The notes under the pieces: model-generated | The model's database searches: none | Told to the model about the DNA's origin: nothing | The model's input: the letters and a program-made list of their open reading frames with translations, nothing else | Position numbers and translations under genes: made by a program | In this document: positions 3,879-32,622 of the stretch, piece by piece | How the letters are laid out: the number at the start of each line of letters is the position of its first letter | Position numbering within the stretch: the first letter of the stretch is position 1 | DNA from: Desulfobacterales bacterium | GTDB taxonomy: Bacteria > Desulfobacterota > Desulfobacteria > Desulfobacterales > JASJAZ01 | Direction: 5' to 3' | DNA: 41,284 nucleotides | Assembly: GCA_030066785.1 (NCBI GenBank) | Contig: JASJAZ010000011.1 | Span: forward strand, 1 to 41,284

Positions 3879-4919
3879 ATGAAAGCCAAAATTACACCGT
3901 CCTATGCTTTTAAAGCGCTTGCCATTACGGCTGTGTTCAACACTATCATTGCCATTTTTCTGACAGTTGTACGGTTTAAAGGTGGCGTTTTTCTGACCAA
4001 TTTCACTTTTTCCCAGTGCATCGGCTTGTCAATATGCGTCTGCATGTTGGGCGTACATCATCTGTTTAACGCCTCACGCCCTATTTTGCAGTTGGTGCTC
4101 CATTTGGCCGGCATGATCTTGGGATCCGTTGTCGGAATCGTCTTGGGTGGTCTTCTATCCGGTATCGGGATCATGTATTTCCTCAAAGAGTCGATCTTTT
4201 TCCTTCAGCTGATTTTTTTTGGTCTTCTTTTCGGCTCCGTCGCCAGTTATTTTTTTCTGTCACGGGAGCGCCTGGCAACCTCTGAAACTCTGGCTCAACA
4301 AGAACGGATTCGGCGTCTGGTTAGCGATAAAAAAATGATCGAAACCAATCTGCGATTGCTGCAAGCCCAAATTGAACCGCATTTCCTATTTAACACCCTG
4401 TCCAACATTTTAAGCCTTTTGGATACCGATACCCACAAAGCCCGATCCATGCTCGAAGATCTGATTCGGTATCTGCGTACATCACTTTCCCGCAGCCGGG
4501 AAAAAATCACAACAATTGGTCAGGAATTGGATCAAATCCAAGCCTATATGAATATCTACAAGATCCGGATGGGCCGCCGCTTAACGTTTTGCATCGATGT
4601 GTCGCAAACAGCCAGAGGATTACCTTTTCCACCGATGATGATCCAACCTCTGGTTGAAAATGCCATTAAACACGGTTTGGAGCCTAAAATAAATGGGGGA
4701 GAAATAAGGATAGCTGTTCAGGCCGAAAATAACTTGATTCGGGTCGTGGTGGCTGATACCGGCTTGGGAATGACCGTTGCTGCGCCACCTGGAACAGGTA
4801 TCGCCAATATTCGTGAACGCCTGCACTCCCTTTTCAATGGAAATGCTCAATTAATTTTAGAAGAAAATACACCTTCCGGGCTTAGGGCCACCCTTGAGGT
4901 TCCGCATGTCGCCACCTAA
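3879..4919 (+). CDS. LytS/YehU-type sensor histidine kinase
   Basis: The product has about four N-terminal membrane helices, then a His_kinase domain with the diagnostic motif QIEPHFLFNTLSNIL, where the His is the phosphorylation site. A HATPase domain follows with N-box PLVENAIKHGLEP, G1 box VADTGLGM and G2 box GTGIANIRERL. The ORF track extends to a TTG at 3849; I prefer the ATG at 3879, because the 10 extra residues look non-conserved, but neither has a strong ribosome site. It overlaps the response regulator gene by 14 bases, so the two are co-translated partners. The membrane part is not the classical 5TM-LYT sensor that I would recognise, so the signal is unknown. Confidence 0.9.
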   Translation: MKAKITPSYAFKALAITAVFNTIIAIFLTVVRFKGGVFLTNFTFSQCIGLSICVCMLGVHHLFNASRPILQLVLHLAGMILGSVVGIVLGGLLSGIGIMYFLKESIFFLQLIFFGLLFGSVASYFFLSRERLATSETLAQQERIRRLVSDKKMIETNLRLLQAQIEPHFLFNTLSNILSLLDTDTHKARSMLEDLIRYLRTSLSRSREKITTIGQELDQIQAYMNIYKIRMGRRLTFCIDVSQTARGLPFPPMMIQPLVENAIKHGLEPKINGGEIRIAVQAENNLIRVVVADTGLGMTVAAPPGTGIANIRERLHSLFNGNAQLILEENTPSGLRATLEVPHVAT

Positions 4920-5673
4920 AGTCATTATCGCCGACGATGAGCAAGAACTAAGATCCTTTCTTAAAAGACAGCTTGGTGAGGTTTGGCCGGAACTCACTAT
5001 TTGCGCTGAAGCAGTCGATGGACCGTCAGCACTGCAGCTCATCCGGTCCCATCAACCTGATATTGTCTTTCTGGATATTCACATGCCAGGCCTAACGGGT
5101 ATGGAGGTGGCTCGACAGATTGATGCTAACTGCCGGATTGTTTTCATCACGGCTTATGATCAGTATGCCGTGGAGGCCTTTGAGGCCGAAGCCGTTGATT
5201 ATCTCCTTAAACCGGTAAGTCGCCAACGAATGGAAATTACCGTCAAGCGGCTGAAACACCAGCTGGCAAAAGCTCCACCTTCATCTTCTGAAACGACCGC
5301 CGCCCTGCAACGCCTGATGGAAAAACTTGCGATCGAAAAACCGCCTGTTTATTTGCAATGGCTACGGGTATCAAAAAACAATAGTATTCAGCTTCTTGCG
5401 GTACAGGAGGTAAGCTATTTTAAGGCCAGTGATAAATATACCAGCGTGATCACGGCTTCCGGGGAAGCATTAATCAAAAAACCGATCAAAGAGCTGGCCG
5501 CCGAGCTGGATCCGAAAATCTTCTGGCGTATTCATCGTGCCACCATTGTAAATGTTGCCTGCATCGATAGCGTAAGCCGTTCCGTGACCGGCCGCTATAT
5601 TCTGCGACTCAAACAACCACCCGACACCCTTACGGTCAGCCGAACGTACGCCCACCTTTTTAAACAAATGTAG
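4906..5673 (+). CDS. LytTR-family DNA-binding response regulator
   Basis: The N-terminal receiver domain has the acidic pocket (IIADDEQE), the phospho-acceptor Asp in VFLDIHMPGLTG and the conserved Lys in YLLKPVS. The C-terminal roughly 100 residues are a LytTR DNA-binding domain (SYFKASDKYTSVIT, FWRIHRATIVN, VSRTYAHLF). The annotated ORF begins at a TTG at 4894; the ATG at 4906 is preceded by TTGAGG with proper spacing and gives the usual receiver start, so I use it. It is coupled by overlap to the kinase. Its targets are unknown; LytTR regulators often control a neighbouring membrane protein or envelope gene. No LytTR-type direct repeat was identified in the flanks by eye. Confidence 0.92.
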   Translation: MSPPKVIIADDEQELRSFLKRQLGEVWPELTICAEAVDGPSALQLIRSHQPDIVFLDIHMPGLTGMEVARQIDANCRIVFITAYDQYAVEAFEAEAVDYLLKPVSRQRMEITVKRLKHQLAKAPPSSSETTAALQRLMEKLAIEKPPVYLQWLRVSKNNSIQLLAVQEVSYFKASDKYTSVITASGEALIKKPIKELAAELDPKIFWRIHRATIVNVACIDSVSRSVTGRYILRLKQPPDTLTVSRTYAHLFKQM

Positions 5674-5843
5674 CAGCACGTTAAACTGCCAATAATCTGC
5701 CTCAAATTTATTAAATTGCGTTGTAATGTAATTTCGTTTCATTGGGGAAAGCAGAATTTTAATCTTGAATCAGCCAGGGACCTACAGAGGATGGCTTTTC
5801 GGTGCTTCAGCTGCTGACACGGATATTTTTGCCGTCACGCGGA

Positions 5844-6632
5844 CTAATTGGCGGCCCGATTACTTTCAACTATCTCAATGATCTTTTCAAAATCTTTTAG
5901 CGGCAGAGCCCCCTGGGTGCCGATACCATTAATCACAAATGCGGGCGTACCCTCAAAACCAAAGCGCTCCGATTCCTGAATGTCTTTGGCCACCAGCCGA
6001 ATTATATCGTTGTCAGCAGCATCTTGTTTCAAACGCTCTAAATCCAGTTCGAGGCTTTGGGCAATTTCAATGAATTTGGTCGTTCCTCTATCCACAATTT
6101 CTTGCTGGTGCGCGAATAAATAATCGTGAAATTGCCAAGCTTTTTCCGAACTTTGCAGTGCTGCGGCTTCAAAATAGATGGCAGTTTTGGTCGCCAATTG
6201 ATCGAGGGGATGGTGCTTGAAAACAAACCTGATTTTATCAGGGTATTTTTCCATCAGGGTGTGAATCGTTGCGGCGGCTTGGGCGCAGTAGGGGCAAAGA
6301 AAATCGGAATAAGAAACAATCGTAATCGGTGCCTGCGGGTTTCCCAACATCAATCGGTCTTCGGCAATCGAGGGCTCCAACCGATTGCTAAGCTGTTGCC
6401 GGTAATGTTCTTCACGAACCTGTGCTTCGGCGGCCAGTTGGCCCTCGCGGACGATCTGGGCAAGCTCGATTTTGTGTTTCCGCAAAATATCTAAAATTAT
6501 CTGTGGATCTTGTTTAGTTGCAACCTTCGAATAGTGGCTATCTGAGTGCGGGTGTTTGTCCAATTGCCTGTCAGTGGCACAGCCGGTTATGAACAAACAA
6601 CCGGCAAAAAACCAAAAAAGTATTGCTCGCAT
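5844..6632 (-). CDS. DsbA-family thiol:disulfide oxidoreductase lipoprotein
   Basis: The 262-aa product has a lipoprotein signal (LFITGC, acylated Cys about residue 18). A charged helical linker of about 70 residues follows, then a thioredoxin fold of the DsbA/Thioredoxin_4 type. The redox motif CPYC lies in SYSDFLCPYCAQAA and the cis-Pro loop in EGTPAFVING. The extra N-terminal helical segment is like that of ScsC/BdbD-type proteins, where it can mediate oligomerisation. It should act in the periplasm, anchored to a membrane, in disulfide formation or isomerisation. No DsbB/DsbD partner is next to it. It is divergent from the glycosyltransferase gene and convergent with the LytTR regulator. 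Confidence 0.88.
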   Translation of the reverse strand: MRAILFWFFAGCLFITGCATDRQLDKHPHSDSHYSKVATKQDPQIILDILRKHKIELAQIVREGQLAAEAQVREEHYRQQLSNRLEPSIAEDRLMLGNPQAPITIVSYSDFLCPYCAQAAATIHTLMEKYPDKIRFVFKHHPLDQLATKTAIYFEAAALQSSEKAWQFHDYLFAHQQEIVDRGTTKFIEIAQSLELDLERLKQDAADNDIIRLVAKDIQESERFGFEGTPAFVINGIGTQGALPLKDFEKIIEIVESNRAAN

Positions 6633-18849: not shown

Positions 18850-19770
18850 TTATGATTGTTCTTTTTCTGAATCCACGACTTGGCCGTAAACGTTGTCAAC
18901 CGGTGGCGTTCCCCTTGCTTCCCGGGAAACCGTGATCTGCTGATGGGGCGGCCGATCCTTGCGATTAAAACTGATCAGTGTTTGCACAATATCCCAGCTG
19001 ACTAATCCTTTCTCGGCCATGCGGGTAATTTCTTCCAGGGCCGTGCGATGATCATATGAAACCGGTCGGTAGGGTCGCTTGGCGATTAAGGCATCAAAAA
19101 TATCGCTAATGGCCACAATCTCAACCATCCGATCGGTTAAATGGATGCCGGCCGGATAACCGGAACCGTCCTTGCGTTCATGATGATCTCTGGCAGTCAA
19201 AGCTGCGGGGCTGTTGTAATCTTTCAGATAATAGCTGAGCAGCACGTAGCCGGCCACCGAATGGTGTTCCAGTCGCTGCCTTTCAATCGCATTGAGTGGT
19301 TCGGTTTTACGCAATATTTCCAGGGGAACACTCACTTTCCCGAAGTCATGCGTGGGTGCCGCCAATGCCTCGCGCATCAAGTCCCGGGGATCATCGATCA
19401 ACTCTTGCGCCAACAGCATGGAAAGTGCGAATACCATCAGAATATGGCGGTAGGTATAATAATCATGCGATTTAAAAAAATCGAGCACCTCCAGCAGGGG
19501 CAGGGCCAGCTTCGTAGCTTCCATCAATCCTAATAGTTTGTCGGTGCTTGGGGTATCTGCAAAAATGATAGAGTACGACGGATGATGACAAAAGCTTAGA
19601 ATATCTTGGCGGACAGTGGCATATTGCAGCAACGGCGCTTGGTAGGCAGGTTCTTCAGGCGCAGCCGCGATCATATCCTGCATAGTGGTTTGTGTTAAAA
19701 CAGTTCCGGCCGGCAACAGTTCCTCGCCAGGCAATGTTGTGACCGGGAAATGACATATCAGATCACCCAT
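18850..19770 (-). CDS. HD-GYP domain protein, probable cyclic-di-GMP phosphodiesterase
   Basis: The C-terminal two thirds is an HD-GYP domain: a conserved His (YRH), the HDFGK metal site, HHSVAG, DHHERKDGSGYP (the GYP signature intact) and FDALIAKRPYRP. All the metal-binding positions I can see are kept, so hydrolysis of cyclic di-GMP is plausible. The N-terminal about 90 residues carry no recognised sensor. The track's start is a TTG at 19812; the ATG at 19770 with GGGAG upstream is better. No GGDEF protein is seen in the window. It stands alone and converges on the CtBP-like gene. Confidence 0.88.
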   Translation of the reverse strand: MGDLICHFPVTTLPGEELLPAGTVLTQTTMQDMIAAAPEEPAYQAPLLQYATVRQDILSFCHHPSYSIIFADTPSTDKLLGLMEATKLALPLLEVLDFFKSHDYYTYRHILMVFALSMLLAQELIDDPRDLMREALAAPTHDFGKVSVPLEILRKTEPLNAIERQRLEHHSVAGYVLLSYYLKDYNSPAALTARDHHERKDGSGYPAGIHLTDRMVEIVAISDIFDALIAKRPYRPVSYDHRTALEEITRMAEKGLVSWDIVQTLISFNRKDRPPHQQITVSREARGTPPVDNVYGQVVDSEKEQS

Positions 19771-20077
19771 TTTCACTCCCGCGTATAAATCGATCCATAA
19801 AGATTCGATCAATTAATAACGTTATCCGAGTAATAGGGGATAGTCAAATTGAATATTATCTTCATAAAAGTGGTACAAATATCTTTACATAGCAAACCGG
19901 CCGACCGATATAAAGACCTGGTCAGGTTGATTGAATTCAACCGTATAGATGCCAATTTGTAGCGACCATTTGCCAACAAACTTTATATTGTAATTCAATC
20001 GTTTTTTGGGCATCATAAATAATAGCAGATGAATTCGTCGCTTAAATGGCTATACCCATAAAGTTGAGGATTGGCTC

Positions 20078-20932
20078 ATGGCTGATGCGCACCAAGTAGA
20101 CCTTATTAGTAAAGGGATCGATACCTGGAATGGATGGCGGAATCTCAGCGATATCAAACCCGATTTAAGCGAAATTGATCTTAGCAAAACCCAATTGGAA
20201 GGGGCGAATTTAAGTGAAACAAATCTCACTCGGGCAAACTTGGAAGGTGCGCGCCTAAGTGGCGCACACTTATTCCGGGCGGATCTAACTCAAGCCGATC
20301 TGCGTCATGTAGATCTGAAATACGCTGATATCCGCGAAGCCCGTCTCAATCGTGCCCAATTGGTTAAGGCTGATCTCAGTTATGCCAACATCAGCCATGC
20401 CGTTCTTTATAACGCCGATATTCGACGTGCCAAAATGGTTGAAACTAAAATGTATGCTTCGGATCTGCGCGAGGCAAATCTGAGCATGGCTGTTTTGGTC
20501 CAGGTTAATCTCAGTAATGCCAAAATGAGCGGCGCCAATTTGAACGGCGCGCGGCTCAGCGACACGAATCTTACCGAGGCTGATTTAAGTGAAGCTAATT
20601 TATTTCGGGCCGATCTTAATGAGGCCATCTTGACGACTGCCAGCCTTTTCGGGGCCAACCTGGGAAGTTCCAATCTGCGCGATGCGCAGCTGGATCACGC
20701 CAATCTCACCGAAGCCGACCTCAGCGATGCCAACCTTATCCGCGCTAATCTTAACGGTGCCAATTTAACAGGTGTGATTTTGGACGCTGCGGTCCTGGAC
20801 GATTGGATAACCACAGGAGTTGTATGCGATTACATTTATTTGGATCGGGAACAAACAAAACGGCTGCCGCAAGAGGGTAATTTCGAAGCGGATGCGTTTA
20901 AAGAATTAGCGGTACATTTGTCTTCCAAATAG
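20078..20932 (+). CDS. Pentapeptide-repeat protein
   Basis: From about residue 30 to 235 the chain is continuous A(D/N)Lxx repeats (GANLSETNLTRANLEGARLS and so on), which fold as a right-handed four-sided beta helix. It is unbroken for roughly 40 coils' worth of pentapeptides. A short non-repeat N-terminus (residues 1-30) and a distinct C-terminal tail (WITTGVVCDYIYLDREQ, then RLPQEGNFEADAFKEL) flank it. There is no signal peptide. The role is unknown: some such proteins mimic DNA and act on gyrase, but most are uncharacterised. GAGG lies about ten bases before the ATG. Confidence 0.9.
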   Translation: MADAHQVDLISKGIDTWNGWRNLSDIKPDLSEIDLSKTQLEGANLSETNLTRANLEGARLSGAHLFRADLTQADLRHVDLKYADIREARLNRAQLVKADLSYANISHAVLYNADIRRAKMVETKMYASDLREANLSMAVLVQVNLSNAKMSGANLNGARLSDTNLTEADLSEANLFRADLNEAILTTASLFGANLGSSNLRDAQLDHANLTEADLSDANLIRANLNGANLTGVILDAAVLDDWITTGVVCDYIYLDREQTKRLPQEGNFEADAFKELAVHLSSK

Positions 20933-21562: not shown

Positions 21563-22990
21563 TTAGCTTGCCTGACGGGTCTTTTCTTTAAGCGCTACGA
21601 ATAGTTTGGGTATCATTCGAACCGGCTTTTCCGAATCGCCATTGCCCGCGGCTTCAGCGGCGTTATCGACTTCGGGAACATAGGACGGTTGGTAAATAAA
21701 ATACCCGTTATAAAGCTTGCCCGGTTCCAGTTCGGTAATAATGGTCGCTTTTTCCCGTAGACTTTCAGGCGCTTTGGTAAAAAAGGTCATTGCCGCACTG
21801 AAAAACAACAAAAAAGCTGCCAAGATATAAGCGGTCTCCGGGGAACCGGTCTGGGCCACAATCATCTGGGATGCACGCGGAAAAATGAAACCACCAATAC
21901 CCCAGGCCGAAAACACCAACCCATAATTTGTTCCAAAATTTTTCAAACCAAAGAAATCTTTGGTTGCAGAAGGAAACAGGGACAGGTTGGTCCCGTAATT
22001 AAAACCAATTAAAGTAGCCGCCAGTACCAACAAGAATGCTTGGTGTTCGCCGATAAAAATAAGTGAGGAAATCACCACGCCCTGGAAGGACAACATCAAT
22101 AGCAGGGTTTTTGCGCGTCCAATTTTATCAGATAAGATTCCAGCGACAACCCGACCGCCGGCATTGCCAACGGCCATTAAAGCCACAACGATCCAGGCCA
22201 ACTCGCCCATGCTTTTTTTGGCCATGCCGGCCACGCTGCCGATGATAATAAGGCCTGCTCCGGATGCCACAAAAAACATAAACCACAACTGGAAAAACGT
22301 TTTGGTTTTAATCGTTTCGCTGGGTGGAAAATCTTCAGAGGTATTTACCGGCTTCAATGGGGTAATCTTGGGAGGTGCCTTTTCAACCGGCTTATAGCCT
22401 GCCGGAGGATTAACCAAAAACAGAGCCAACCCACAAACAACGATCAAAAAAGAAACCCCGAAAATCATCATTGATTGGCTTAGCCCAAATTTACCGATAA
22501 GATAATTGGCCAATGGCGCAATGTAAACGGATGCCAGTCCAAATCCCGCCACAACAATACCGGCAATCATGCCGGTTTTAGATGCCGGGAACCATTTAAT
22601 AGCCGGTGGTGTCGCCGAGGCATAACCAAAGCCCAGGCCCAAACCCATCAGCACACCAAATCCGAGAATCCAGTTAGCTAAAACCGTGCTTTGCGAGGTA
22701 GCCAGCAAGCCAGCGCCCGTTAAAATACCGCCGAAAATGGCGGTCAAACGTGGATTAACCTTGTCCTGCAGCCGTCCAGCGGCCAACATCGCCAGGGTAA
22801 ACATCAAACAGCACACCGCAAATGGATCGTTCAAAGAAGCGATGTCCCAATTAAAACGACCATCACCGGCTAAAATCGATTCTTTGATTTCAGCCTTAAA
22901 AATACTCCAGGTGTATAAAATCCCCAGTGCCAGATTGATGCCCAACCCGGCCATGGTAACGCTCCAACCTCTATTTCTAATCTGTTCCAT
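21563..22990 (-). CDS. MFS transporter, oxalate/formate antiporter (OFA) family
   Basis: The 475-aa product has about 12 membrane helices and the OFA family look: GWSVTMAGLGINLALGILYT at the start, a central cytoplasmic loop after helix 6 (KPVEKAPPKITPLKP) and a charged C-terminal tail. Members exchange or co-transport small monocarboxylates or dicarboxylates. GAGAGGAAATCCG fixes the ATG at 22990, ten codons inside the track ORF. It is downstream of, and on the same strand as, the Cache kinase and NtrC-type regulator. The intervening spacer has regulator-like palindromes and a sigma54-like promoter, so it is the probable target of that pair. Confidence 0.9.
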   Translation of the reverse strand: MEQIRNRGWSVTMAGLGINLALGILYTWSIFKAEIKESILAGDGRFNWDIASLNDPFAVCCLMFTLAMLAAGRLQDKVNPRLTAIFGGILTGAGLLATSQSTVLANWILGFGVLMGLGLGFGYASATPPAIKWFPASKTGMIAGIVVAGFGLASVYIAPLANYLIGKFGLSQSMMIFGVSFLIVVCGLALFLVNPPAGYKPVEKAPPKITPLKPVNTSEDFPPSETIKTKTFFQLWFMFFVASGAGLIIIGSVAGMAKKSMGELAWIVVALMAVGNAGGRVVAGILSDKIGRAKTLLLMLSFQGVVISSLIFIGEHQAFLLVLAATLIGFNYGTNLSLFPSATKDFFGLKNFGTNYGLVFSAWGIGGFIFPRASQMIVAQTGSPETAYILAAFLLFFSAAMTFFTKAPESLREKATIITELEPGKLYNGYFIYQPSYVPEVDNAAEAAGNGDSEKPVRMIPKLFVALKEKTRQAS

Positions 22991-23135
22991 CGGATTTCCT
23001 CTCTTGATGATCTTGCTCAAAGCCTTTCAAGGTATGAGTGATTTATTTTTAGTTGCTGGCTATATTGGTAGCCGGACCTGAAGAATTTGCCGGCATAAAA
23101 AAATAAGTTACTAAATTCCGATTTCATACTGAATG

Positions 23136-23243
23136 CTATTCATTTATTGAACTATTGAGACCTTGCAAAACGCAATTTGGTAGACAGAATAGCGAAATGC
23201 GTACCAATCGGCTCAATAAACTTTAACTAATTGAAATGAATAG
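23136..23243. repeat. Imperfect inverted repeat bracketing the sigma54-like site
   Basis: CTATTCATTT (23136-23145) pairs exactly with AAATGAATAG (23234-23243), and TATTGAG (23153-23159) with CTCAATA (23212-23218). The arms bracket the sigma54-like element at 23191-23207. Possible meanings are a DNA-bending or regulator site, or the remains of a small mobile element; I cannot decide. Confidence 0.4.
23191..23207 (-). promoter_or_regulatory. Candidate sigma54 (-24/-12) promoter for the MFS gene
   Basis: On the minus strand the sequence TTGGTACGCATTTCGCT matches the sigma54 consensus YTGGCACG-N4-TTGCW with one mismatch in each half and keeps the GG-N10-GC spacing. It points at the MFS gene about 200 bases downstream and lies 80-195 bases from the three palindromes upstream, a normal enhancer geometry. 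The neighbouring regulator has an intact GAFTGA loop for sigma54. Confidence 0.5.
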
Positions 23244-23286
23244 ATTTATTGAATTATTAGCCGGATGCCACTATAGGCAAAAGGTC

Positions 23287-23386
23287 ACAACTAAAATTGT
23301 AAAAAGAGATTGAAAATGAAACAAAACGGGAGGTTGTGAAGGAATCTATCGTCTACAACCAAAGTTGTGAAAACAACTATAGTTGT
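23287..23386. promoter_or_regulatory. Three ACAAC-N4-GTTGT palindromes, likely enhancer sites
   Basis: The copies are ACAACTAAAATTGT (23287-23300, one mismatch), ACAACCAAAGTTGT (23355-23368) and ACAACTATAGTTGT (23373-23386, a perfect palindrome). The last two are 18 bases apart centre to centre, and a half site lies near 23333. They fall between the NtrC-type regulator gene and the MFS gene, and are good candidates for the regulator's upstream activating sequences. The rest of the 22991-23533 gap has no coding frame that I trust. Confidence 0.65.
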
Positions 23387-23533
23387 AGGCTTTTGCATGA
23401 TCAAAGCGGGATGATGCCTTGGATTCTGGCAATAATACCGAAAGGGTCGGCTAACTTACAATGATCATTTTATTAGTGTTACTTGCAGATGATGTATGCG
23501 AGATTCGAGCGTTGCATGGGATCGATCCTCATT

Positions 23534-24970
23534 TTAGCTATCTTTTGAACCTATTTTTTTGAGTCTTTTGCTCAGGGCTTGCTGCGATATGCCCAACATC
23601 CCGGCCGCAATCGATTGGTTGCCGTCTGCCCGGTCCATTGCCTCGGCAACTAACAGCTGAACGGCTTTTTTAATGGTCGGCAATTGTTCTGAAAAGTGAA
23701 TCCGTCGCGACCCCTCCGCAGAAAGCCGAATATCGGTTTCCACAGCTTGCTGCTCCCGGCTCTGGTGCGCTTGAATATGGGCCTTGAAAACTTCTAAAGA
23801 AAGAATACCGCCCTTGTGCCGGCTGACAGCATCAAATATCAGCGTCTGGAGCTCGCGCACATTGCCTGGGAAAGCATAGGTTTTTAACAGGGTTGCTAGT
23901 TCAACCGGTGGTGTGGGCTTTTTTTTGCCAAGCGAACGGGCCGCCTCGTTTAAAAAGTGATCCACCAGCAGAGGAATATCATCGATGCGTTCGCGCAACG
24001 GTGGTATGTATATTCGATGGGTGCGCAGCCGGTAGTTAAGATCTTTACGGAATTTTCCGGCCTTTTGACGTTTCCAAAGATCAACATTGGTTGAAGCAAT
24101 AATGCGCACATCGGTATTTTTTGGTTCGTCTTGTCCCAAGGGAAAATATTCACCTTCCTGCAGCAACCGCAGTAGCTTTATTTGAGAAGCGAGACTTAAA
24201 TCGCCGATTTCATCCAGGAACAGTGTCCCGGCCGTGGCTTTTTCGATCAGCCCGGACCGATCAATATCCGCTCCGGTAAACGCGCCCCGCACGTGTCCAA
24301 AAAGCGTATCCGAAAACACATTGTCATCCAGACCAGCCACATTAACCGCAATAAACTGTCCGCTGCGCCCGCTGAGTTCGTGCAGGGTCTGGGCGATCAA
24401 CTCTTTGCCTACGCCGGTTTCACCCCGAATTAACACCGGCTGGGATGTCTGCGCAATGGACTCGATATATTGAAAAATGGCCAGCATCTTTTTGTTGTTG
24501 GTAATGATGCTGACAAAGGCTTCCGGCTTCTCCAATGTATCTGTTAGAATATGCTGTTTTAGCGCGAAATTTTCACGCTTCAGCTCGCGGAAAGACAAAG
24601 CCCGATGAACCGCGGTAAGCAGCCGCTCCTCTTCAACCGGTTTGACGACATAATCAAAGGCGCCGGATTTCATGCACAGCACAGCGGTTTCGATATCCAC
24701 AGCACCGGTCACAATGATAATGGGTATTTCAGGAAATTCCCGGCTGATTTGATCTAACAATTCACGGCCATCGATATGAGGCATATTAAGGTCCAACAAT
24801 ACAACTTCCGCCGGCTGTTTGTTCAGCTGCTCCATGACCTGGCGACTGTCCTCGCAGGTGCGGGTATGGGTCAGCCCCGCCATTTGGAGTGTTGTTTCGA
24901 TGGCGAGTAAAATCGGTGCTTCATCGTCCACAATTAAAATCGGATGATCGGTTTGAGCTGTATTATTCAT
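23534..24970 (-). CDS. NtrC-family sigma54-dependent response regulator
   Basis: The order is: receiver domain (ILIVDDEAP, phospho-Asp in VVLLDLNMPHIDG, Lys in VVKPVEEE), AAA+ domain (Walker A GETGVGKELIA, sigma54-contacting loop GAFTGA, Walker B GTLFLDEIGDLS) and a Fis-type helix-turn-helix (AAGMLGISQQALSKRLKKI). The 478-aa length is normal. GGGGGAG places the start at the ATG at 24970, not the TTG at 24982. The start overlaps the kinase stop by 8 bases (ATGAATAA), so the two are translationally coupled. It should activate a sigma54 promoter; the palindromes just downstream are the obvious binding sites. Confidence 0.93.
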   Translation of the reverse strand: MNNTAQTDHPILIVDDEAPILLAIETTLQMAGLTHTRTCEDSRQVMEQLNKQPAEVVLLDLNMPHIDGRELLDQISREFPEIPIIIVTGAVDIETAVLCMKSGAFDYVVKPVEEERLLTAVHRALSFRELKRENFALKQHILTDTLEKPEAFVSIITNNKKMLAIFQYIESIAQTSQPVLIRGETGVGKELIAQTLHELSGRSGQFIAVNVAGLDDNVFSDTLFGHVRGAFTGADIDRSGLIEKATAGTLFLDEIGDLSLASQIKLLRLLQEGEYFPLGQDEPKNTDVRIIASTNVDLWKRQKAGKFRKDLNYRLRTHRIYIPPLRERIDDIPLLVDHFLNEAARSLGKKKPTPPVELATLLKTYAFPGNVRELQTLIFDAVSRHKGGILSLEVFKAHIQAHQSREQQAVETDIRLSAEGSRRIHFSEQLPTIKKAVQLLVAEAMDRADGNQSIAAGMLGISQQALSKRLKKIGSKDS

Positions 24971-26489
24971 ATGCTCCCCCAATAACAGTATCGGCCTCAG
25001 ATGCCGACGGCAATCGCAGTTGAACCGTCGTTCCTCGGTCCCTTTGGGACGTAAAAATCATCTCACCGCGATGATCCTGCACGATGCGTTCGGCAATGGC
25101 CAATCCCAATCCGGTGCCGCCGTCATCCCGTTTGGTGGTAAAAAACGGATCTCGAATGTGCTGCAGGGCATCAGCAGGAATGCCACGGCCTTGGTCGCGG
25201 ACTTCTATAACAACCTGCTGTCGCCTGGCATCATAAGCCGTAGACAGATGAACCGCCTTGTCCACCTCGGTCAGGGCCTCGCAGGCGTTAACCAATAGGT
25301 TGATAATAACTTGCTCAATCTTTTGAGTATTACCGCTAATGGCGGGAATGTTGGTACCATAATCCGCCTGAAAATTATGCGTACTTTTTTTTATTAGATT
25401 TCCCACCAGACCAACGGCTTTGGCCGACACCGCGTTGATATCGATGGAATCGTCCATTTCAGGCGGCTGTTGGCGGGCATAATCTTTCAGGTCAGCAACA
25501 ATGGTTTTAATCCGTTCGGCGCCCTCGGCAATATTGGTCATTAACAGGGGAATACGATTGCGAAGCTGCGAATATGGCATCTGACCCACCATAAAATCAC
25601 CATGTCGGTGCTGATGGTCATCCAGGATGGGCAGCGCTATATCCCAGACCTTTTGTAAAATGGGAGCATTCAACATAACAAACGTGACCGGGTTGTTAAT
25701 TTCGTGGGCTACGCCGGAGACAAGCGTACCAAGGGTTGCCATTTTATCGGCCTGAAAAAGCTGTTCCTGGTGCAGTTTTGACTGTTTTTCAGCCTCACTC
25801 CGGCGCCGTTCGCTTTGTAAGTTTTGCCAAATGATATAAGACGACAGCCCCACAATCAATATGGCTATACCCAGACAAACCCAAGTCAGCTTCCGCGTAA
25901 TGGCGGCGATCTCCTCGCGCACATCTTCCACATAAATGCCCGTGCCAATGATCCATTCCCACGGTTTAAAGCCTTTTACGTAAGAAATTTTGGGAACGAT
26001 CCGTTGGGGATCGTCTTTCCATTGCCATTGATAATCCACATACCCGGCACCCTGCGACTGAACGACTTTGACACATTCCACAAACAGCCGTTTGCCATTT
26101 GGATCTTTGAAATCCGAGATGTCCTGGCCCACCAGATCTTGGCGATACGGGTGCATGATTAAAATTGGATGGGTATCGTTAATCCAGAAATAATCTTTGC
26201 TTTCGGGCCCGTAGCGCATCTGCTGCAGGTGTTCGACGGCCTGTGCCTGAGCTTGCGCGCGGCTGAGAAGTCCGTCGCCCTCCTTATTATAATAACTCTG
26301 CAAGATACTCCCGGCCGCTTCGGTTAACTCGCGGATCATTTCCCGTTTAGCGGTCATCAAGCGTTCTTCCATAATCGGCAGCACCAGGAAAAAAATCGTG
26401 CCGACAAAAAGGATCACCGTTAAAACCGCCGGCAAAACAACTCGAACAGGTATGCCCTGAAGTTTGAGGTTAATGGGTCGCGCATGCAT
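24963..26489 (-). CDS. Cache-domain sensor histidine kinase
   Basis: A first membrane helix (about residues 14-34), a periplasmic single Cache (sCache_2-type) ligand domain (YFWINDTHPILIMHPYRQDL, WIIGTGIYVEDV) and a second helix (LGIAILIVGLSSYIIW) precede the kinase core. The core has H-box GVAHEINNPVTFV, N-box INLLVNACEAL, G1 VRDQGRGIP and G2 GGTGLGLAI. The layout is DctB-like: it senses a small extracellular molecule, commonly a carboxylate, and phosphorylates the adjacent regulator. With the regulator and the OFA transporter it makes a complete sense-and-import module. The start ATG at 26489 has only a distant GGAA. Confidence 0.92.
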   Translation of the reverse strand: MHARPINLKLQGIPVRVVLPAVLTVILFVGTIFFLVLPIMEERLMTAKREMIRELTEAAGSILQSYYNKEGDGLLSRAQAQAQAVEHLQQMRYGPESKDYFWINDTHPILIMHPYRQDLVGQDISDFKDPNGKRLFVECVKVVQSQGAGYVDYQWQWKDDPQRIVPKISYVKGFKPWEWIIGTGIYVEDVREEIAAITRKLTWVCLGIAILIVGLSSYIIWQNLQSERRRSEAEKQSKLHQEQLFQADKMATLGTLVSGVAHEINNPVTFVMLNAPILQKVWDIALPILDDHQHRHGDFMVGQMPYSQLRNRIPLLMTNIAEGAERIKTIVADLKDYARQQPPEMDDSIDINAVSAKAVGLVGNLIKKSTHNFQADYGTNIPAISGNTQKIEQVIINLLVNACEALTEVDKAVHLSTAYDARRQQVVIEVRDQGRGIPADALQHIRDPFFTTKRDDGGTGLGLAIAERIVQDHRGEMIFTSQRDRGTTVQLRLPSASEADTVIGGAYE

Positions 26490-26748: not shown

Positions 26749-26776
26749 GTTGCATCGTTTAAACCCCGGATGCAAC
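26749..26776 (+). promoter_or_regulatory. 8-bp inverted repeat upstream of the peptide-binding protein gene
   Basis: GTTGCATC (26749-26756) and GATGCAAC (26769-26776) are an exact inverted repeat separated by 12 bases, about 95 bases before the ATG. It could be an operator or a leader hairpin. The rest of the 26490-26869 divergent gap (380 bases) is AT-rich with no other feature I can defend. Confidence 0.4.
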
Positions 26777-26869
26777 ATAATCGACGACCTGTTCAAATGG
26801 CAGGTGAACCTCGTTCTTTTCGGGGATGTGAGGGTAAACATTTACAGAGTTTCAAAAAAGGAGGAAGGA

Positions 26870-28423
26870 ATGAAGAAAGTATTTGTGTTTTGTTTAGCGA
26901 TTTTCATGCTAATTCCTTTGGCTACAACTGCAGGTGCCAAAACATTAAAATTAGGCCTCGATGCCGGTCCGGTATCGCAGGATCCCCAGGTGCAGTTGTC
27001 CGGCGGCATGCTGCAGTATTCACATTGGGTGTTTGATCCGCTTGTACGTTATCGACAGGATATGAGTTTTGAGCCGCGCCTGGCGGAAAAGTGGGAACGC
27101 GTTGATGATCTGACCATGCGGTTTTATCTGCGCAAGGGTGTTAAATTTCACAGCGGCAATGCTTTTACAGCCAAGGACGTTAAATTTACCTTTGATCGTT
27201 TTTATAAAAGCGCTGATTTCAAAGGCCTGTTTGCCCCATTTGAGGGTTGCCATATCGTCGATGACCATACCTTGGATATCAAAACCAAAAAACCTTACGC
27301 GCTGCTGATCAACATGGCCACCTATATTTTTCCCTTGGACAGTCAATTTTACTCCGGTACGGATGCTTCGGGTCAGCCCAAAGATGCGGTGGTTAAAATC
27401 GGGCCGTCGTTTGCCCTTCATAATTCCTCCGGAACCGGACCTTACAAGGTGTCCCATTGGGAACAGGGGGCCAAATATGTATTTGATCGCTTTGCCAACT
27501 ACTGGGACAAAAAATCACCCGGCAATGTCGATCAGATTATTCTGACCCCGATTAAAGAGGATGCCACCCGGGTGGCGGCGCTGCTTTCCGGTGATGTCGA
27601 TTTTATTTCACCGGTACCGCCCCAGGATTTCAAAAGAGTCAGCAAAGATACCAAGACCAAGTTGATAACCTATCCCGGCGGCCGTATCATCACGATTCAA
27701 TTGAATCAGAAACGGCGCCCCGAATTCAAGGATGCGCGCGTGCGCCAAGCCATTGTGCATGCCATCAACAACGAGGGTATCGTTAAAAAGATCATGAAAG
27801 GCACCGCCACCACAGCCGGTCAACAGAGTCCCAAAGGCTACATGGGGCACAATCCCAAACTCAAACCGCGCTATGGCCTGCGAAAAGCCAAAAAATTCAT
27901 GAAGGAAGCCGGTTTGGCTGATGGTTTTGAGTGCACCATGATAGCTCCTAACAATCGTTATGTGAACGACGAAAAAATTGCCGAAGCGGTGGTGTCCATG
28001 CTGGCTAAAATTAACATCAAGGTGAACCTCAAAACCATGCCCAAGGCTCAATACTGGGATGAGTTTGATGCCCAGGTGGCCGACATCCAAATGATCGGCT
28101 GGCACTCCGATACGGAAGATTCCGGTAACTTTTCCGAATTTTTGGTCATGTGCCCTAATAAGGAAACTGGATACGGTCAGTACAATAGCGGCAATTACTG
28201 CAATCCCAAAATCGATGAATTGACCATGGCCGCCCAGACCGAAACGGATCTGAAAAAACGGGCAAAGATCCTGAAGGAAATTGAACAAATTCTGTATGAT
28301 GATGCGGCCTTTGTGCCCTTTCACTGGCAAAACCACTCCTACGGCGGCAAGAACAAAGTAGATATCAAGAAAATCGTCAACACCATGAATTTCCCATATC
28401 TGGGTGATTTGGTGATTAAGTAA
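26870..28423 (+). CDS. Peptide-type ABC transporter substrate-binding protein
   Basis: The 517-aa product has a cleavable signal (MKKVFVFCLAIFMLIPL, cleavage after AGA) and the SBP_bac_5 fold of DppA/OppA proteins (VFDPLVRYRQDMSFEPRLAE, RKGVKFHSGNAFTAKDVKF, ARVRQAIVHAIN). It captures a peptide or, as in several relatives, nickel or another solute in the periplasm. AAAGGAGGAAGGA fixes the ATG at 26870, inside the longer track ORF. It is the first gene of a five-gene importer. A hairpin after it probably keeps its level above that of the permeases. The ligand cannot be read from sequence. Confidence 0.93.
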   Translation: MKKVFVFCLAIFMLIPLATTAGAKTLKLGLDAGPVSQDPQVQLSGGMLQYSHWVFDPLVRYRQDMSFEPRLAEKWERVDDLTMRFYLRKGVKFHSGNAFTAKDVKFTFDRFYKSADFKGLFAPFEGCHIVDDHTLDIKTKKPYALLINMATYIFPLDSQFYSGTDASGQPKDAVVKIGPSFALHNSSGTGPYKVSHWEQGAKYVFDRFANYWDKKSPGNVDQIILTPIKEDATRVAALLSGDVDFISPVPPQDFKRVSKDTKTKLITYPGGRIITIQLNQKRRPEFKDARVRQAIVHAINNEGIVKKIMKGTATTAGQQSPKGYMGHNPKLKPRYGLRKAKKFMKEAGLADGFECTMIAPNNRYVNDEKIAEAVVSMLAKINIKVNLKTMPKAQYWDEFDAQVADIQMIGWHSDTEDSGNFSEFLVMCPNKETGYGQYNSGNYCNPKIDELTMAAQTETDLKKRAKILKEIEQILYDDAAFVPFHWQNHSYGGKNKVDIKKIVNTMNFPYLGDLVIK

Positions 28424-28446
28424 GCTGCTAAATTAAACATCAGCAT

Positions 28447-28493
28447 GGGGCAGGTGGTCGTTATAAATCATAGCACCCCTGCCCTACGTTTTT
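28447..28493 (+). terminator. Intra-operon attenuator/terminator after the binding protein gene
   Basis: GGGCAGG (28448-28454) pairs with CCTGCCC (28478-28484), and a TTTTT run follows at 28489. It lies in the 130-base gap between the binding protein and first permease gene, so it is likely a partial terminator or mRNA-stabilising stem-loop that gives unequal expression. Confidence 0.55.
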
Positions 28494-28553
28494 ATAATGG
28501 GTGCGCATTTGGCAAAACAACGCGACCCTTAAACAAAAGAATAATCAACCCCC

Positions 28554-29528
28554 ATGTTCGCATTTATTGTCAGACGTATCATCCAGGCCATTATTGTGAT
28601 GCTGGTCATCGGCCTGGTGGGATTCATCATCCAGCACCAGATTGGTGATCCCGTCCGAGACTTAGTGGGCGAGCGGGTCACACCCGCCGAACGCGAAGTC
28701 ATCCGGGATCAACTGGGCTTAAATGATCCCTTTTACATCCAATATGTCCGTTTTGTAAAAAATGCCGTTAAAGGCGATCTGGGTCTGTCTTTTTTCTACA
28801 AAAAACCTGCTCTCGAAGTCATTTTAGCCAAAGCCCCCGCAACCATCGAGCTGGTCCTTGTTACCGCCCTGATCCTGATCGTTGTCTCCATTCCGTCGGG
28901 TATTTATGCCGCTATTTATCCCAAAAGCTGGTTCTCCCGTATCATCATGGCAGTTAGTACCATCGGGGTGGCCATGCCTGTGTTTCTAACGGCCATCGTC
29001 CTGATTTATTTTTTTGGGGTGGAATTGAACTGGCTGCCGTCCTATGGACGGGGCGAAACCGTCAATCTCTGGGGATGGGAAAGCGGTTTTTTCACGCTGG
29101 ACGGGCTAAAACACCTGATATTACCCAGTGTATCCCTCTCATCGATCATGCTGCCGCTTTTCATCCGACTGGTCCGGGCCGAAATGATGGAAGTTCTGGA
29201 AACCGAATATATCAAATTCGCCTGGGCCAAGGGACTCCACCGGCAGCGGGTCTGGTATATTCATGCCTTTAAAAACACCCTGCTGCCGGTGATCACCGTC
29301 TTCGGCGTTCAGCTGGGAATTCTGGTTGCTTTTACGATTTTGACGGAAACCGTGTTTCAATGGCAGGGAATGGGTTTTATGTTTCTGGAGGCTGTGGAAC
29401 GCTCGGACACCACCCTTCTGGTGGCCTACCTGATTGTGGTGGGTGTCATTTTCGTTGTCGTCAATACCATCGTTGATATCATCTACGGGTTCGTCAACCC
29501 CATGGTAAGAATTGCAGGAACCAAATGA
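28554..29528 (+). CDS. ABC transporter permease, DppB-like
   Basis: The 324-aa protein has six predicted membrane helices and the BPD_transp_1 domain of the DppB type: the N-terminal LGLNDPFYIQYVRFVKNAVKGDLG segment, and the EAA-type loop (EVLETEYIKFAWAKGL) that docks the ATPases. With the next gene it forms the membrane channel for the substrate delivered by the binding protein. Its stop overlaps the next start by four bases (ATGA). Confidence 0.93.
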   Translation: MFAFIVRRIIQAIIVMLVIGLVGFIIQHQIGDPVRDLVGERVTPAEREVIRDQLGLNDPFYIQYVRFVKNAVKGDLGLSFFYKKPALEVILAKAPATIELVLVTALILIVVSIPSGIYAAIYPKSWFSRIIMAVSTIGVAMPVFLTAIVLIYFFGVELNWLPSYGRGETVNLWGWESGFFTLDGLKHLILPSVSLSSIMLPLFIRLVRAEMMEVLETEYIKFAWAKGLHRQRVWYIHAFKNTLLPVITVFGVQLGILVAFTILTETVFQWQGMGFMFLEAVERSDTTLLVAYLIVVGVIFVVVNTIVDIIYGFVNPMVRIAGTK

Positions 29529-30442
29529 AATCCTGGAATCGATTTAAAAATTCTTATCTTTTGTACAGCTTTAAGCGCGATCCCGTTGCAATTATCAGCT
29601 TTTGCGTTCTTGCGGTACTGGGAGTTATCAGTATTTTAGCACCGGTTATCGCACCGTACAATACCTATGATACTGCAACCATTGACATCATGGACGCCGA
29701 AACCCCCCCCACCTGGATGGAAGACGGCGATGAGCGGTTTATACTAGGAACCGATATCCAGGGCAGGGATCTTTTAAGTACGATGATTTTCGGATTGAGA
29801 GTTTCCCTGCTAATCGGCGTCGGTGCGGTATTGTTCCAGTCATTTGTAGGGATCTTGGTAGGCATTATTTCAGGTTTTTTTGGCGGAAAGCTTGATTCCT
29901 TCTTGATGAGGTTAGCTGATATTCAGTTTTCTTTACCCTACTTAATCGTTGCGATCTTCACTATGGCTATCTTCAAAGTGGCATTTGGTATCGGACGCTA
30001 TGAAGATCTAGCCGAACCACTGTTGATCATTATCATTGGATTATCGCAGTGGCCGCATTACGCCAGGACCGTTCGGGCTTCGGTTCTAGGAGAAAAGAAT
30101 AAGGAATATGTGGAGGCGGCCCGGGTGATAGGCATCAGCCGTCAGCTGATCATGTTTCGCCACATCTTACCCAATACCATGACGCCGGTTTTGGTTATTT
30201 CCACCATCCAGGTTGCCAATGCGATCATGAGTGAGGCCGCCCTCTCGTTTTTAGGTTTGGGCATGCCCATTACCAGACCCTCGCTGGGATCTCTTATTCG
30301 CGCCGGATTCGAATATATTTTCAGTGGCTCCTGGTGGATCACTTTCTTTCCGGGAGTCTTGCTGGTTATTTTAATCTTAGTGATCCTGCTGCTCGGGGAC
30401 TGGCTGAGGGATGTACTTAATCCGAAGTTATACAAGGGATAA
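29525..30442 (+). CDS. ABC transporter permease, DppC-like
   Basis: The 305-aa protein has the DppC-type N-terminal segment (FKRDPVAIISFCVLAVLGVIS), the periplasmic loop RFILGTDIQGRDLLSTMIFGLR and the EAA loop (EYVEAARVIGISRQLIMFRHIL). It partners the DppB-like permease and overlaps it by 4 bases, implying coupled translation. There are about six helices and the length is normal. Confidence 0.93.
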   Translation: MKSWNRFKNSYLLYSFKRDPVAIISFCVLAVLGVISILAPVIAPYNTYDTATIDIMDAETPPTWMEDGDERFILGTDIQGRDLLSTMIFGLRVSLLIGVGAVLFQSFVGILVGIISGFFGGKLDSFLMRLADIQFSLPYLIVAIFTMAIFKVAFGIGRYEDLAEPLLIIIIGLSQWPHYARTVRASVLGEKNKEYVEAARVIGISRQLIMFRHILPNTMTPVLVISTIQVANAIMSEAALSFLGLGMPITRPSLGSLIRAGFEYIFSGSWWITFFPGVLLVILILVILLLGDWLRDVLNPKLYKG

Positions 30443-30542
30443 GTTATCGGAGAAGAATAACTTAAAATTTAAATTGGATTACTGCATAAAAAGAATTTGA
30501 TTCATTTGATGATTCACAAAAAGATTGCTCTATTTCGCTATT

Positions 30543-31508
30543 ATGAGTCATTTACTTGAAGTAAAAGATCTGGAAGTAAAATTTGCATTACGATTTGGCG
30601 ACTTGACGGCCATCAACGGCGTTAGCTTGACCTTGGATAAAGGCGAGCGGCTGGGGATTGTGGGGGAAAGTGGGGCTGGAAAGTCGGTGACCGGTTTTGC
30701 GATTATCAACCTGCTGAGCAAACCCGGCTATATTTCCGCCGGGCGGGTTCTGTTAGAAGGCCAGGAATTAAATCGACTGCCGGAAGAAGACATGCGCAAA
30801 ATTCGCGGCAACCGCATCAGCATGATCTTTCAGGACCCCATGATGACCCTCAACCCGGTCCTGACGATCAAAACCCAGATGATCGAAACCATACTGGCTC
30901 ATGCAAATGTCAGCAAGACAGAGGCGACTGACATCGCTCTGGATAAATTAAAAAAGGTTCACATACCGTCTTCGGAAAAGAGAATTCACCAATATCCCCA
31001 TGAGTGCTCGGGTGGGATGCGGCAGCGGATAGTCGTTGCCATTGCTCTGCTGACTAATCCGGCTCTGATCATTGCCGATGAACCGACCACCGCTTTGGAC
31101 GTTACCATTCAGGCGGAAATCATGGATTTGCTTCAAGAGTTGTGCGCATCTGAAAAAATGGGACTCATCCTGATCACCCATGATCTGGGGGTTGTATCCC
31201 AGGTCACGGAAAGAATCGCTGTTATGTATGCAGGCAAAATTGCGGAAATCGGACCTACCCAGGTGGTCATCCATGATCCCCAACACCCTTACACCCAGGG
31301 ATTGATCAAAGCCTTGCCTGGCAGTCTCCAACCGGGATCACGTTTAAACCAGATCCCCGGCATGATGCCAACTTTAACCGATATTCCGCCGGGATGCGCT
31401 TTTCATCCCCGCTGTACCATCAGTGATACGATCTGCCGGATGGAAGTGCCGGCGTTGATCAGCAGACATGACCATGACCACATGATCGCCTGTCATGTGG
31501 TGAAGTAA
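30543..31508 (+). CDS. ABC transporter ATP-binding protein, DppD-like
   Basis: The protein has Walker A GESGAGKS, the ABC signature CSGGMRQR, Walker B ALIIADEPTTALD, and the extra C-terminal oligopeptide-type domain with Cys residues (GCAFHPRCTISDTICR), which in DppD/OppD relatives can hold an iron-sulfur cluster. The track starts at a TTG at 30525; I prefer the ATG at 30543, which gives the usual start but has no good ribosome site. It energises the two permeases together with the next gene. Confidence 0.93.
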   Translation: MSHLLEVKDLEVKFALRFGDLTAINGVSLTLDKGERLGIVGESGAGKSVTGFAIINLLSKPGYISAGRVLLEGQELNRLPEEDMRKIRGNRISMIFQDPMMTLNPVLTIKTQMIETILAHANVSKTEATDIALDKLKKVHIPSSEKRIHQYPHECSGGMRQRIVVAIALLTNPALIIADEPTTALDVTIQAEIMDLLQELCASEKMGLILITHDLGVVSQVTERIAVMYAGKIAEIGPTQVVIHDPQHPYTQGLIKALPGSLQPGSRLNQIPGMMPTLTDIPPGCAFHPRCTISDTICRMEVPALISRHDHDHMIACHVVK

Positions 31509-31605
31509 AGAAATCAAGTTCAGGGGCTCCAGCTCGAGGTTAAATTATCACGAACTTATTGAACCCGGCTTAATTCGGTAGTTTTTAGAGTGAAGGTTCT
31601 TCAGA

Positions 31606-32622
31606 ATGGAAAATGACAACAGCCTGCTGGCCGTCAACAACTTAGTCAAGCATTTCGATATTTCCGGTGGTTTGCTGGAACAGCTGCGCTGGAAAAACGG
31701 GCGAATCGTTCGCCGAAAGACTACGGTCAAAGCACTCAATGATATCAGTTTTTCCATTATGCCACGTGAAATTCTTGGTGTTGTTGGCGAAAGTGGCTGT
31801 GGCAAATCGACTCTGGCCCGAGCGGTGTTGGGTCTATATCCGCCCGACAGCGGGGAGATAAATTATCAAAGCAGCCGAATTGACAATTTAACACCCCATC
31901 AGATGCTGCCCTTTCGGAAAAAAATGCAGATGATTTTTCAGGACCCTTATGCATCCCTGAATCCCCGTATGACCGTAAAAAGAACGCTGGAGGAACCGTT
32001 CCTTTTTCACAATAAATCGGCCACACCCACAGAAGTCAAGGACAAGGTAGAGGAAGTCATGCAGCAGGTCGGGGTTGAGCCCAGCTGGATCACGCGTTAC
32101 CCCCACGAATTTTCCGGAGGCCAGAGACAGCGTATCAGTATTGCCAGAGCCTTGATGGTCGATCCGGAATTTATCGTGGCTGATGAGCCGGTGTCCGCCC
32201 TGGACGTCTCCATTCAAGCCCAGATACTGAACCTGCTAATGGAGGCCCAGGAAAAAAGAGGCCTAACCTATCTTTTTATTACCCATGACTTATCCGTTGT
32301 GGAACATTTCAGTACCCGCGTCGCAGTTATGTACCTCGGTAAAATCTGTGAATTGGCCGCCACTAGCGAACTATTCGAATCGCCCCGTCACCCTTACACC
32401 CAAGCACTGCTTAGCGCGATTCCGGAGCTTGGCCGACAGAAGCCCACGCACATCAAACTGAAAGGCGAGGTACCCACGCCTATCGAACTGCCAGCCGGCT
32501 GTGTATTTCATGGCCGATGTCTCTATACCGATGAGCGCTGCATCCGCGAAGTTCCCCAGTTAATTTCACTGAATTCAGGTGTTGAAGTCGCCTGCCATGC
32601 TGTTGAGGAAAATCGGATTTGA
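31606..32622 (+). CDS. ABC transporter ATP-binding protein, DppF-like
   Basis: The protein has Walker A GESGCGKST, signature FSGGQRQRIS, Walker B FIVADEPVSALD and the C-terminal oligo-peptide domain with CVFHGRCLYTDERC. At 338 aa it is the second, DppF-type ATPase of the importer. It lies 97 bases after the first ATPase gene. No terminator is obvious after the stop; the 176-base gap to the cupin holds a small dyad. Confidence 0.93.
   Translation: MENDNSLLAVNNLVKHFDISGGLLEQLRWKNGRIVRRKTTVKALNDISFSIMPREILGVVGESGCGKSTLARAVLGLYPPDSGEINYQSSRIDNLTPHQMLPFRKKMQMIFQDPYASLNPRMTVKRTLEEPFLFHNKSATPTEVKDKVEEVMQQVGVEPSWITRYPHEFSGGQRQRISIARALMVDPEFIVADEPVSALDVSIQAQILNLLMEAQEKRGLTYLFITHDLSVVEHFSTRVAVMYLGKICELAATSELFESPRHPYTQALLSAIPELGRQKPTHIKLKGEVPTPIELPAGCVFHGRCLYTDERCIREVPQLISLNSGVEVACHAVEENRI

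Follow-up and report, generated by a model that had tools for sequence, protein, structure and literature searches.

A two-component system encoded next to a carboxylate carrier gene raises the questions of which signal is perceived, how this signal reaches the carrier gene and which compound is finally imported. Such an arrangement was found on a contig of a Desulfobacterales bacterium (accession number JASJAZ010000011.1), of which a stretch of 41,284 nucleotides was analysed (hereafter referred to as the window). Acetate is a central food of sulfate-reducing Desulfobacterales, and those members of this order that oxidise their substrates completely consume much of the organic carbon of anoxic marine sediment, including acetate. 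In the literature searched, no description of acetate sensing and import in Desulfobacterales was found, and the system presented here was not described in the searched literature on regulation and acetate transport in Desulfobacteraceae. Likewise, no description of the literal operator motif or of this regulon was found in the literature searched, the coverage of which was partial.

Gene order and control elements of the locus

The genes in question are located on the minus strand in the order (in the sense of transcription) of histidine kinase, overlapping response regulator, a gap of approximately 520 nt, and MFS carrier (Table 1). According to Pfam, the kinase comprises a periplasmic sCache_2 domain followed by HisKA and HATPase_c, with His262 as the putative phospho-acceptor. 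The regulator features a receiver, a sigma54-activator AAA+ domain with a GAFTGA loop at residue 229, and a Fis-type HTH, which together characterize NtrC-type sigma54 activators. Its HTH recognition helix, SQQALSKRLKK, is kept in orthologues. The overlap between the kinase and regulator genes, pointed out in an earlier sequence-only reading of the window, amounts to 8 bp; the regulator starts with ATG, a TTG at 24982 being a possible alternative, and the ATG of the carrier gene at 22990 is preceded by AGAGAGGA. Divergent from the kinase, a complete operon for a peptide/nickel-type ABC importer was observed (window 26750-32622; family 5 binding protein, two permeases, two ATPases), the binding protein of which matched no NCBIfam equivalog above cut-off. 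Moreover, genes for a pentapeptide-repeat protein and an HD-domain protein adjoin the module (window 20078-20932 and 18850-19812, respectively).

Table 1. Genes and control elements of the locus (positions refer to the window; a dot marks elements without strand)
Feature	Position	Strand	Family assignment
Sensor histidine kinase	24963..26489	-	Pfam PF17200 (6.7e-41), PF00512, PF02518
NtrC-type response regulator	23534..24970	-	Pfam PF00072, PF00158, PF02954
Operator palindrome 1 (distal), ACAACTATAGTTGT, exact	23373..23386	.	
Operator palindrome 2, exact, 18 bp from palindrome 1	23355..23368	.	
Operator palindrome 3 (promoter-proximal), one mismatch, 68 bp from palindrome 2	23287..23300	.	
Sigma54-type -24/-12 element TGGTACG-catt-TCGCT, GG-N10-GC	23191..23206	-	
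MFS carrier, OFA/SfMCT branch	21563..22990	-	Pfam MFS_1; NCBIfam NF049980

Three ACAAC-N4-GTTGT palindromes had been claimed for the gap upstream of the carrier gene. Two of them are exact, but the third is a near-copy with one mismatch. Allowing at most one mismatch, the motif occurs five times in the window versus 0.89 expected occurrences, a number reached by none of 100 shuffles. The whole 4.6-Mb genome contains three exact palindromes, two of these being located in the carrier gap; the third one (contig C240), lying inside a 543-aa ORF and not forming a pair, was taken as a chance occurrence. The two-site pair was found once in the genome, even when three mismatches were allowed. Single palindromes with one mismatch were not used, as they are at background level (110 versus 222 for the reversed control). 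Measured from their starts, the palindromes precede the sigma54 element by 94, 162, and 180 bp, in agreement with the 80 to 195 bases proposed earlier and with palindromic upstream activating sequences situated about 80-200 bp before a promoter.

The minus-strand element proposed as the promoter (TGGTACGCATTTCGCT, with GG-N10-GC spacing) was found as well. It represents the best match in the gap and was equalled by none of 200 shuffles. Taken alone, the sigma54 pattern shows no enrichment in the window (8 one-mismatch matches versus 10.5 expected) and was therefore judged by comparison between loci, its position alone being informative. Both the GG-N10-GC at a conserved place (see below) and the presence of rpoN in the genome speak for a sigma54 promoter. 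Deduced from position and sequence, this putative promoter would direct a transcription start near 23180. On both sides of the element, AT-rich near-repeats were noticed (TTCAATAAATCTATTCAT and TTCAATAAATGAATAG; window 23115-23260), possibly representing an IHF-type or other accessory site.

Conservation of the operator layout and the recognition helix

To compare the layout among relatives, a protein search with the regulator was performed among named genomes, resulting in 48 loci. The relatives L001, L002, L004, and L007 (regulator identity between 64% and 76%) feature the same kinase-regulator-carrier order with an intact gap. Each of these loci contains three palindromes, of which some deviate by one or two mismatches; the first and second lie exactly 18 bp apart, and the -24/-12 element follows the third. 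Palindromes in orthologous loci had been set beforehand as a test, and they were present in every kinase-regulator-MFS locus with sequence across the gap; the -24/-12 element was likewise detected at the conserved place in the loci compared by sequence. With both elements conserved in orthologous loci, the earlier reading of the module as a self-contained sense-and-import switch survives.

The pair alone was also searched for in 390 genomes belonging to the same class; matches were obtained in 99, although those with three mismatches include chance matches, as judged from the reversed control. Among the close matches listed, the pair is located overwhelmingly before an MFS carrier of this kind or before SatP, and usually directly after the same regulator. 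In 378 genomes from elsewhere in the phylum, a single, chance-like pair was found.

For a detailed comparison of operator and carrier, 53 loci were used (42 with MFS carriers and 11 with SatP; L007 and L124 lie on the same contig), which are mutually related, so that their number overstates their independence. Across them, the spacing of 18 bp within the pair is conserved, and the refined operator site reads YACAAC-N4-GTTGTR. Between the second and the third site, 45 of the 51 loci with a third site show a distance of 67-73 bp; the outlying distances (83 and 89-93 bp) are longer by approximately one and two helical turns, which suggests that the helical phase matters. The third site is followed by the sigma54 element at 79-96 bp in 48 of 51 loci, and the position of this element relative to the palindromes is conserved in 50 of the 51. 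GG-N10-GC is exact in 49 of the 53 loci, and in all of them the element is better than dinucleotide-sampled shuffles (p <= 0.015).

Two unusual arrangements were observed among the loci. L084 carries two operator triplets 1.8 kb apart (positions 4741-6604), one before SatP and the other before an MFS carrier, its regulator being encoded about 46 kb away. L027 (2026-2201), on a contig binned as Acidobacteria, encodes a QQAISKR regulator and shows a strong sigma54 element and two palindromes 87 bp apart (18+69), which would result from either mis-binning or lateral transfer.

Presence of the operator was found to follow the recognition helix of the regulator. When only the loci retrieved by the protein search are considered, palindromes accompany every intact QQA[LI]S[KNS]R regulator for which downstream sequence is available, and none were present for regulators with RQALNKR, RTALNNR, QPALSKR, or QSALSRR helices. 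A well-supported clade of the tree contains, besides QQALSKR regulators, the QPALSKR regulator (L006) and the QSALSRR pair (L025/L026); a changed helix and an absent site therefore go together among close kin. The genome analysed here encodes one QQALSKR regulator among the close relatives and one operator; in its second close regulator (C18, 55% identical), the helix reads RQALNRR, and palindromes are absent. In four genomes (G241, G196, G091, and G256) and at a second locus of G353, an operator without adjoining regulator was identified, the QQALSKR regulator being encoded elsewhere in the genome. The exception is G224, in which the pair is present and no QQALSKR regulator is encoded; chance or incompleteness may account for this. 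Six of the 25 near-complete genomes without the pair encode a QQALSKR regulator, and these six possess a degenerate operator directly before the acetyl-CoA synthetase gene (acs). Based on covariation and genome-wide co-occurrence, the QQALSKR helix is predicted to bind ACAAC-N4-GTTGT.

Signal and cargo of the switch

The module had further been regarded as the regulon of one carrier, which applies to the genome studied here: acsA does not adjoin the carrier gene, the acsA encoded elsewhere and the other ligase genes of this genome lack the operator, and SatP was not found in it. In relatives, however, the same operator also precedes genes for acetate--CoA ligase, PrpE-type ligase, SatP, and AdhE. 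Family f12, taken to be Desulfobacteraceae-like, has the acetyl-CoA synthetase gene directly after the carrier gene (MFS-acsA operons) in about 25 loci. The operator was located before AcsA itself in L119 and in the six genomes with a degenerate operator, before a PrpE-type ligase in L123 and L126 (in mirror image in L094 and L089), before SatP, an acetate carrier unrelated to the MFS carrier, in 11 loci, and before AdhE in L120. Six loci featuring the pair (L085, L086, L128, L130, L131, and L005) were left out of this acetate picture, as their targets are ambiguous. From the targets in relatives, the theme of the regulon is most likely the acquisition and activation of acetate.

Some loci feature additional genes or operators. 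In L094 (about 2186-2380, with the locus turned so that the regulator reads forward) and L005 (2832-3012), the kinase gene is preceded by a further operator triplet in mirror image, which possesses a sigma54 element of its own and faces a divergent gene that encodes a PrpE-type ligase in L094 and a 98-aa ORF of no known family in L005. In the Desulfobulbales-type loci L009, L011, L021, L039, and L040, a CoA-transferase gene follows SatP and a PrpE-like ligase gene lies upstream of the kinase, the CoA-transferase of L009 being fused to a GNAT acetyltransferase.

The sensor domain of the kinase is 46% identical to that of PscD, and all seven ligand contacts of PscD (Y90, W92, H103, F126, Y143, W145, and K156) are represented by identical residues (Y100, W102, H113, F136, Y153, W155, and K167), as expected for an sCache_2 sensor of C2/C3 monocarboxylates such as PscD and McpP. 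These residues are identical in 42 of the 43 kinases compared, the exception (L092) being due to an alignment gap. PscD was described to bind glycolate and acetate, and more weakly propionate and pyruvate, and did not bind the C4 and longer acids tested (PMC5062169). The sCache_2 domains of PscD, McpP, and Adeh_3718 are parts of chemotaxis receptors (PMC5062169), whereas the domain described here belongs to a histidine kinase. With this pocket, the kinase would also accept glycolate, propionate, and pyruvate. Operator targets and pocket agree on a C2/C3 monocarboxylate as the signal, most likely acetate in the first place.

The carrier had been addressed as OFA-type. It does not pass the oxalate:formate antiporter model TIGR04259 (159.6 versus 335 bits), and oxalate/formate exchange was rejected on these scores; what stands is an MFS carrier nearest to the SfMCT branch. 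The NCBIfam model NF049980 (L-lactate MFS transporter, SfMCT) is matched with 413.7 bits (cut-off 320), and the nearest solved structure (33% identity) is 6g9x, representing SfMCT, the L-lactate/H+ carrier of Syntrophobacter fumaroxidans (PDB 6g9x; PMC6573034). The SfMCT anchor residues L28, Y119, N276, R280, Y331, and F359 are kept, those holding the carboxylate (Y119, N276, R280, and Y331; SfMCT numbering) among them. For lactate transport by SfMCT, D257, D378, and Y383 are essential and H250 is strongly needed (PMC6573034). In the carrier studied here, these proton-relay residues (H250, D257, D378, and Y383) are replaced by S, K, A, and P, respectively; they are not conserved in the 39 carriers compared, and the pocket residues L145, F335, and C362 are changed to F, L, and W throughout the carrier branch. 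With the relay absent and the pocket changed, 'L-lactate MFS transporter' becomes a doubtful name for this carrier, and the automatic annotation may be misleading for this branch as a whole. On the other hand, among the linear unsubstituted monocarboxylates tested with SfMCT, competition was seen for propionate and butyrate only (PMC6573034), so that acetate is not a known ligand. We propose that the protein represents a carrier for acetate or short-chain monocarboxylates. The NF049980 matches in the window and in L001, L002, L004, and L007 all concern carriers without the SfMCT relay, and carriers matched by this model sit in acetate operons in relatives.

Considering regulator, operator, pocket, and targets, the locus quite probably represents a sigma54-dependent uptake regulon of Desulfobacterales that responds to acetate (C2/C3 monocarboxylate), in analogy to DctBD and LurSR. 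The same switch with L-lactate (or C3 acids) as signal and cargo, i.e., a LurSR-like uptake system with an SfMCT-type carrier, appears unlikely to us. The NCBIfam score, the nearest structure, and the conserved carboxylate anchor of the carrier would fit such a role, and related sCache sensors such as McpP bind lactate too (PMC5062169). However, the operator precedes acsA, SatP, and PrpE-type ligase genes in relatives, no lactate dehydrogenase was found among the operator targets scanned, PscD with its identical pocket prefers C2 acids (PMC5062169), and the carrier has lost the relay and pocket residues of SfMCT named above.

It is far less probable that another transcription factor binds the palindromes, or that they serve as terminators or RNA hairpins behind the regulator gene, their proximity being incidental. 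Inverted 5-bp arms separated by a 4-nt loop could allow the RNA to fold into a small hairpin, and in many loci the sites follow shortly after the stop codon of the regulator. Yet they are also found at a great distance from regulator genes, preceding acs, SatP, MFS, and adhE, as well as in mirror-image copies accompanied by a divergent promoter (L094, L089), keep a conserved spacing to the sigma54 element, and track the recognition helix. Chance occurrence of palindromes and promoter in an AT-rich gap, the carrier being expressed independently of the kinase-regulator pair, has next to no probability left: the -24/-12 pattern alone is no rarer than chance in the window, but shuffles, genome-wide counts, the conserved spacing of triplet and promoter in dozens of loci, and the clade-restricted occurrence have already refuted it as far as sequence comparison can do.

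Proposed mechanism and comparison with known systems

For the acetate-responsive regulon, the following course of events is conceivable. The periplasmic sCache_2 domain would bind a C2/C3 monocarboxylate, most likely acetate, and the kinase would phosphorylate the regulator, as suggested by the domains and the conserved pocket. Through its QQALSKR helix, the regulator would contact the ACAAC-N4-GTTGT palindromes and presumably form an oligomer on the 18-bp pair and the third site, so that GAFTGA loop and ATPase could open sigma54-RNA polymerase at the -24/-12 element approximately 94 bp downstream. The resulting transcript, with a predicted leader of about 190 nt, would encode the MFS carrier, which would import the monocarboxylate sensed. 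The module probably serves the carrier alone in this genome; in relatives, the same regulator and operator would also drive acetyl-CoA synthetase and SatP genes.

In a wider sense, the module could be the main regulon for acetate acquisition in sulfate-reducing Desulfobacterales, in which a single operator design, served by an orthologous pair of sCache kinase and QQALSKR regulator, is combined with interchangeable targets (MFS carrier, SatP, AcsA, and PrpE-type ligase), with the MFS carriers as an unrecognised acetate-carrier family devoid of the SfMCT proton relay; we consider the chances of this extension to be even. If true, another type of coupling may be at work in carriers without the relay (sodium, anion exchange, or facilitated uptake). 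For acetate acquisition, the analysis provides a regulator with its DNA site, the layout of the promoter, and candidates for the sensor ligand and the carrier. Operator, helix, and promoter represent a clean natural case of an enhancer architecture that is kept while the target genes are exchanged.

Among known systems, DctB/DctD combines a periplasmic Cache/PAS-like sensor kinase, an NtrC-type regulator, upstream enhancers, and the sigma54 promoter of one carrier gene. The analogy to DctBD drawn in the sequence-only reading is appropriate in that the module would work likewise, but it is not a member of this system: its target is an MFS carrier instead of a DAACS (DctA) or TRAP (DctPQM) carrier, and the kinase pocket matches sensors of C2/C3 monocarboxylates, not those of C4 dicarboxylates. 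In CrbS/CrbR systems, the regulator CrbR is of the LuxR type and is not known to depend on sigma54. CrbS/CrbR (also MxtR/ErdR) was described to control acs and acetate use in Vibrio and Pseudomonas, with CrbS sensing via an SLC5-type domain (PMC5715377, PMC9927547). Two-component control of acetyl-CoA synthetase is common to both systems, the only domains known to be shared being the kinase core and the receiver.

LurSR of Desulfovibrio, with LurR (DVU3023), is a two-component sigma54 activator system for lactate uptake and oxidation; its targets comprise lactate oxidation genes and lactate permeases, and it is reported to be conserved in Desulfovibrionales (PMC6456213). LurR differs in recognizing 16-bp sites resembling GTCCGCTTTTTCAGAC (PMC6456213), a site absent from the locus described here, where ACAAC-N4-GTTGT is found in its place. 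Nevertheless, both represent sigma54-dependent two-component control of short-carboxylate use in sulfate reducers with a carrier among the targets, and in both three binding sites are located upstream of one sigma54 promoter (PMC6456213).
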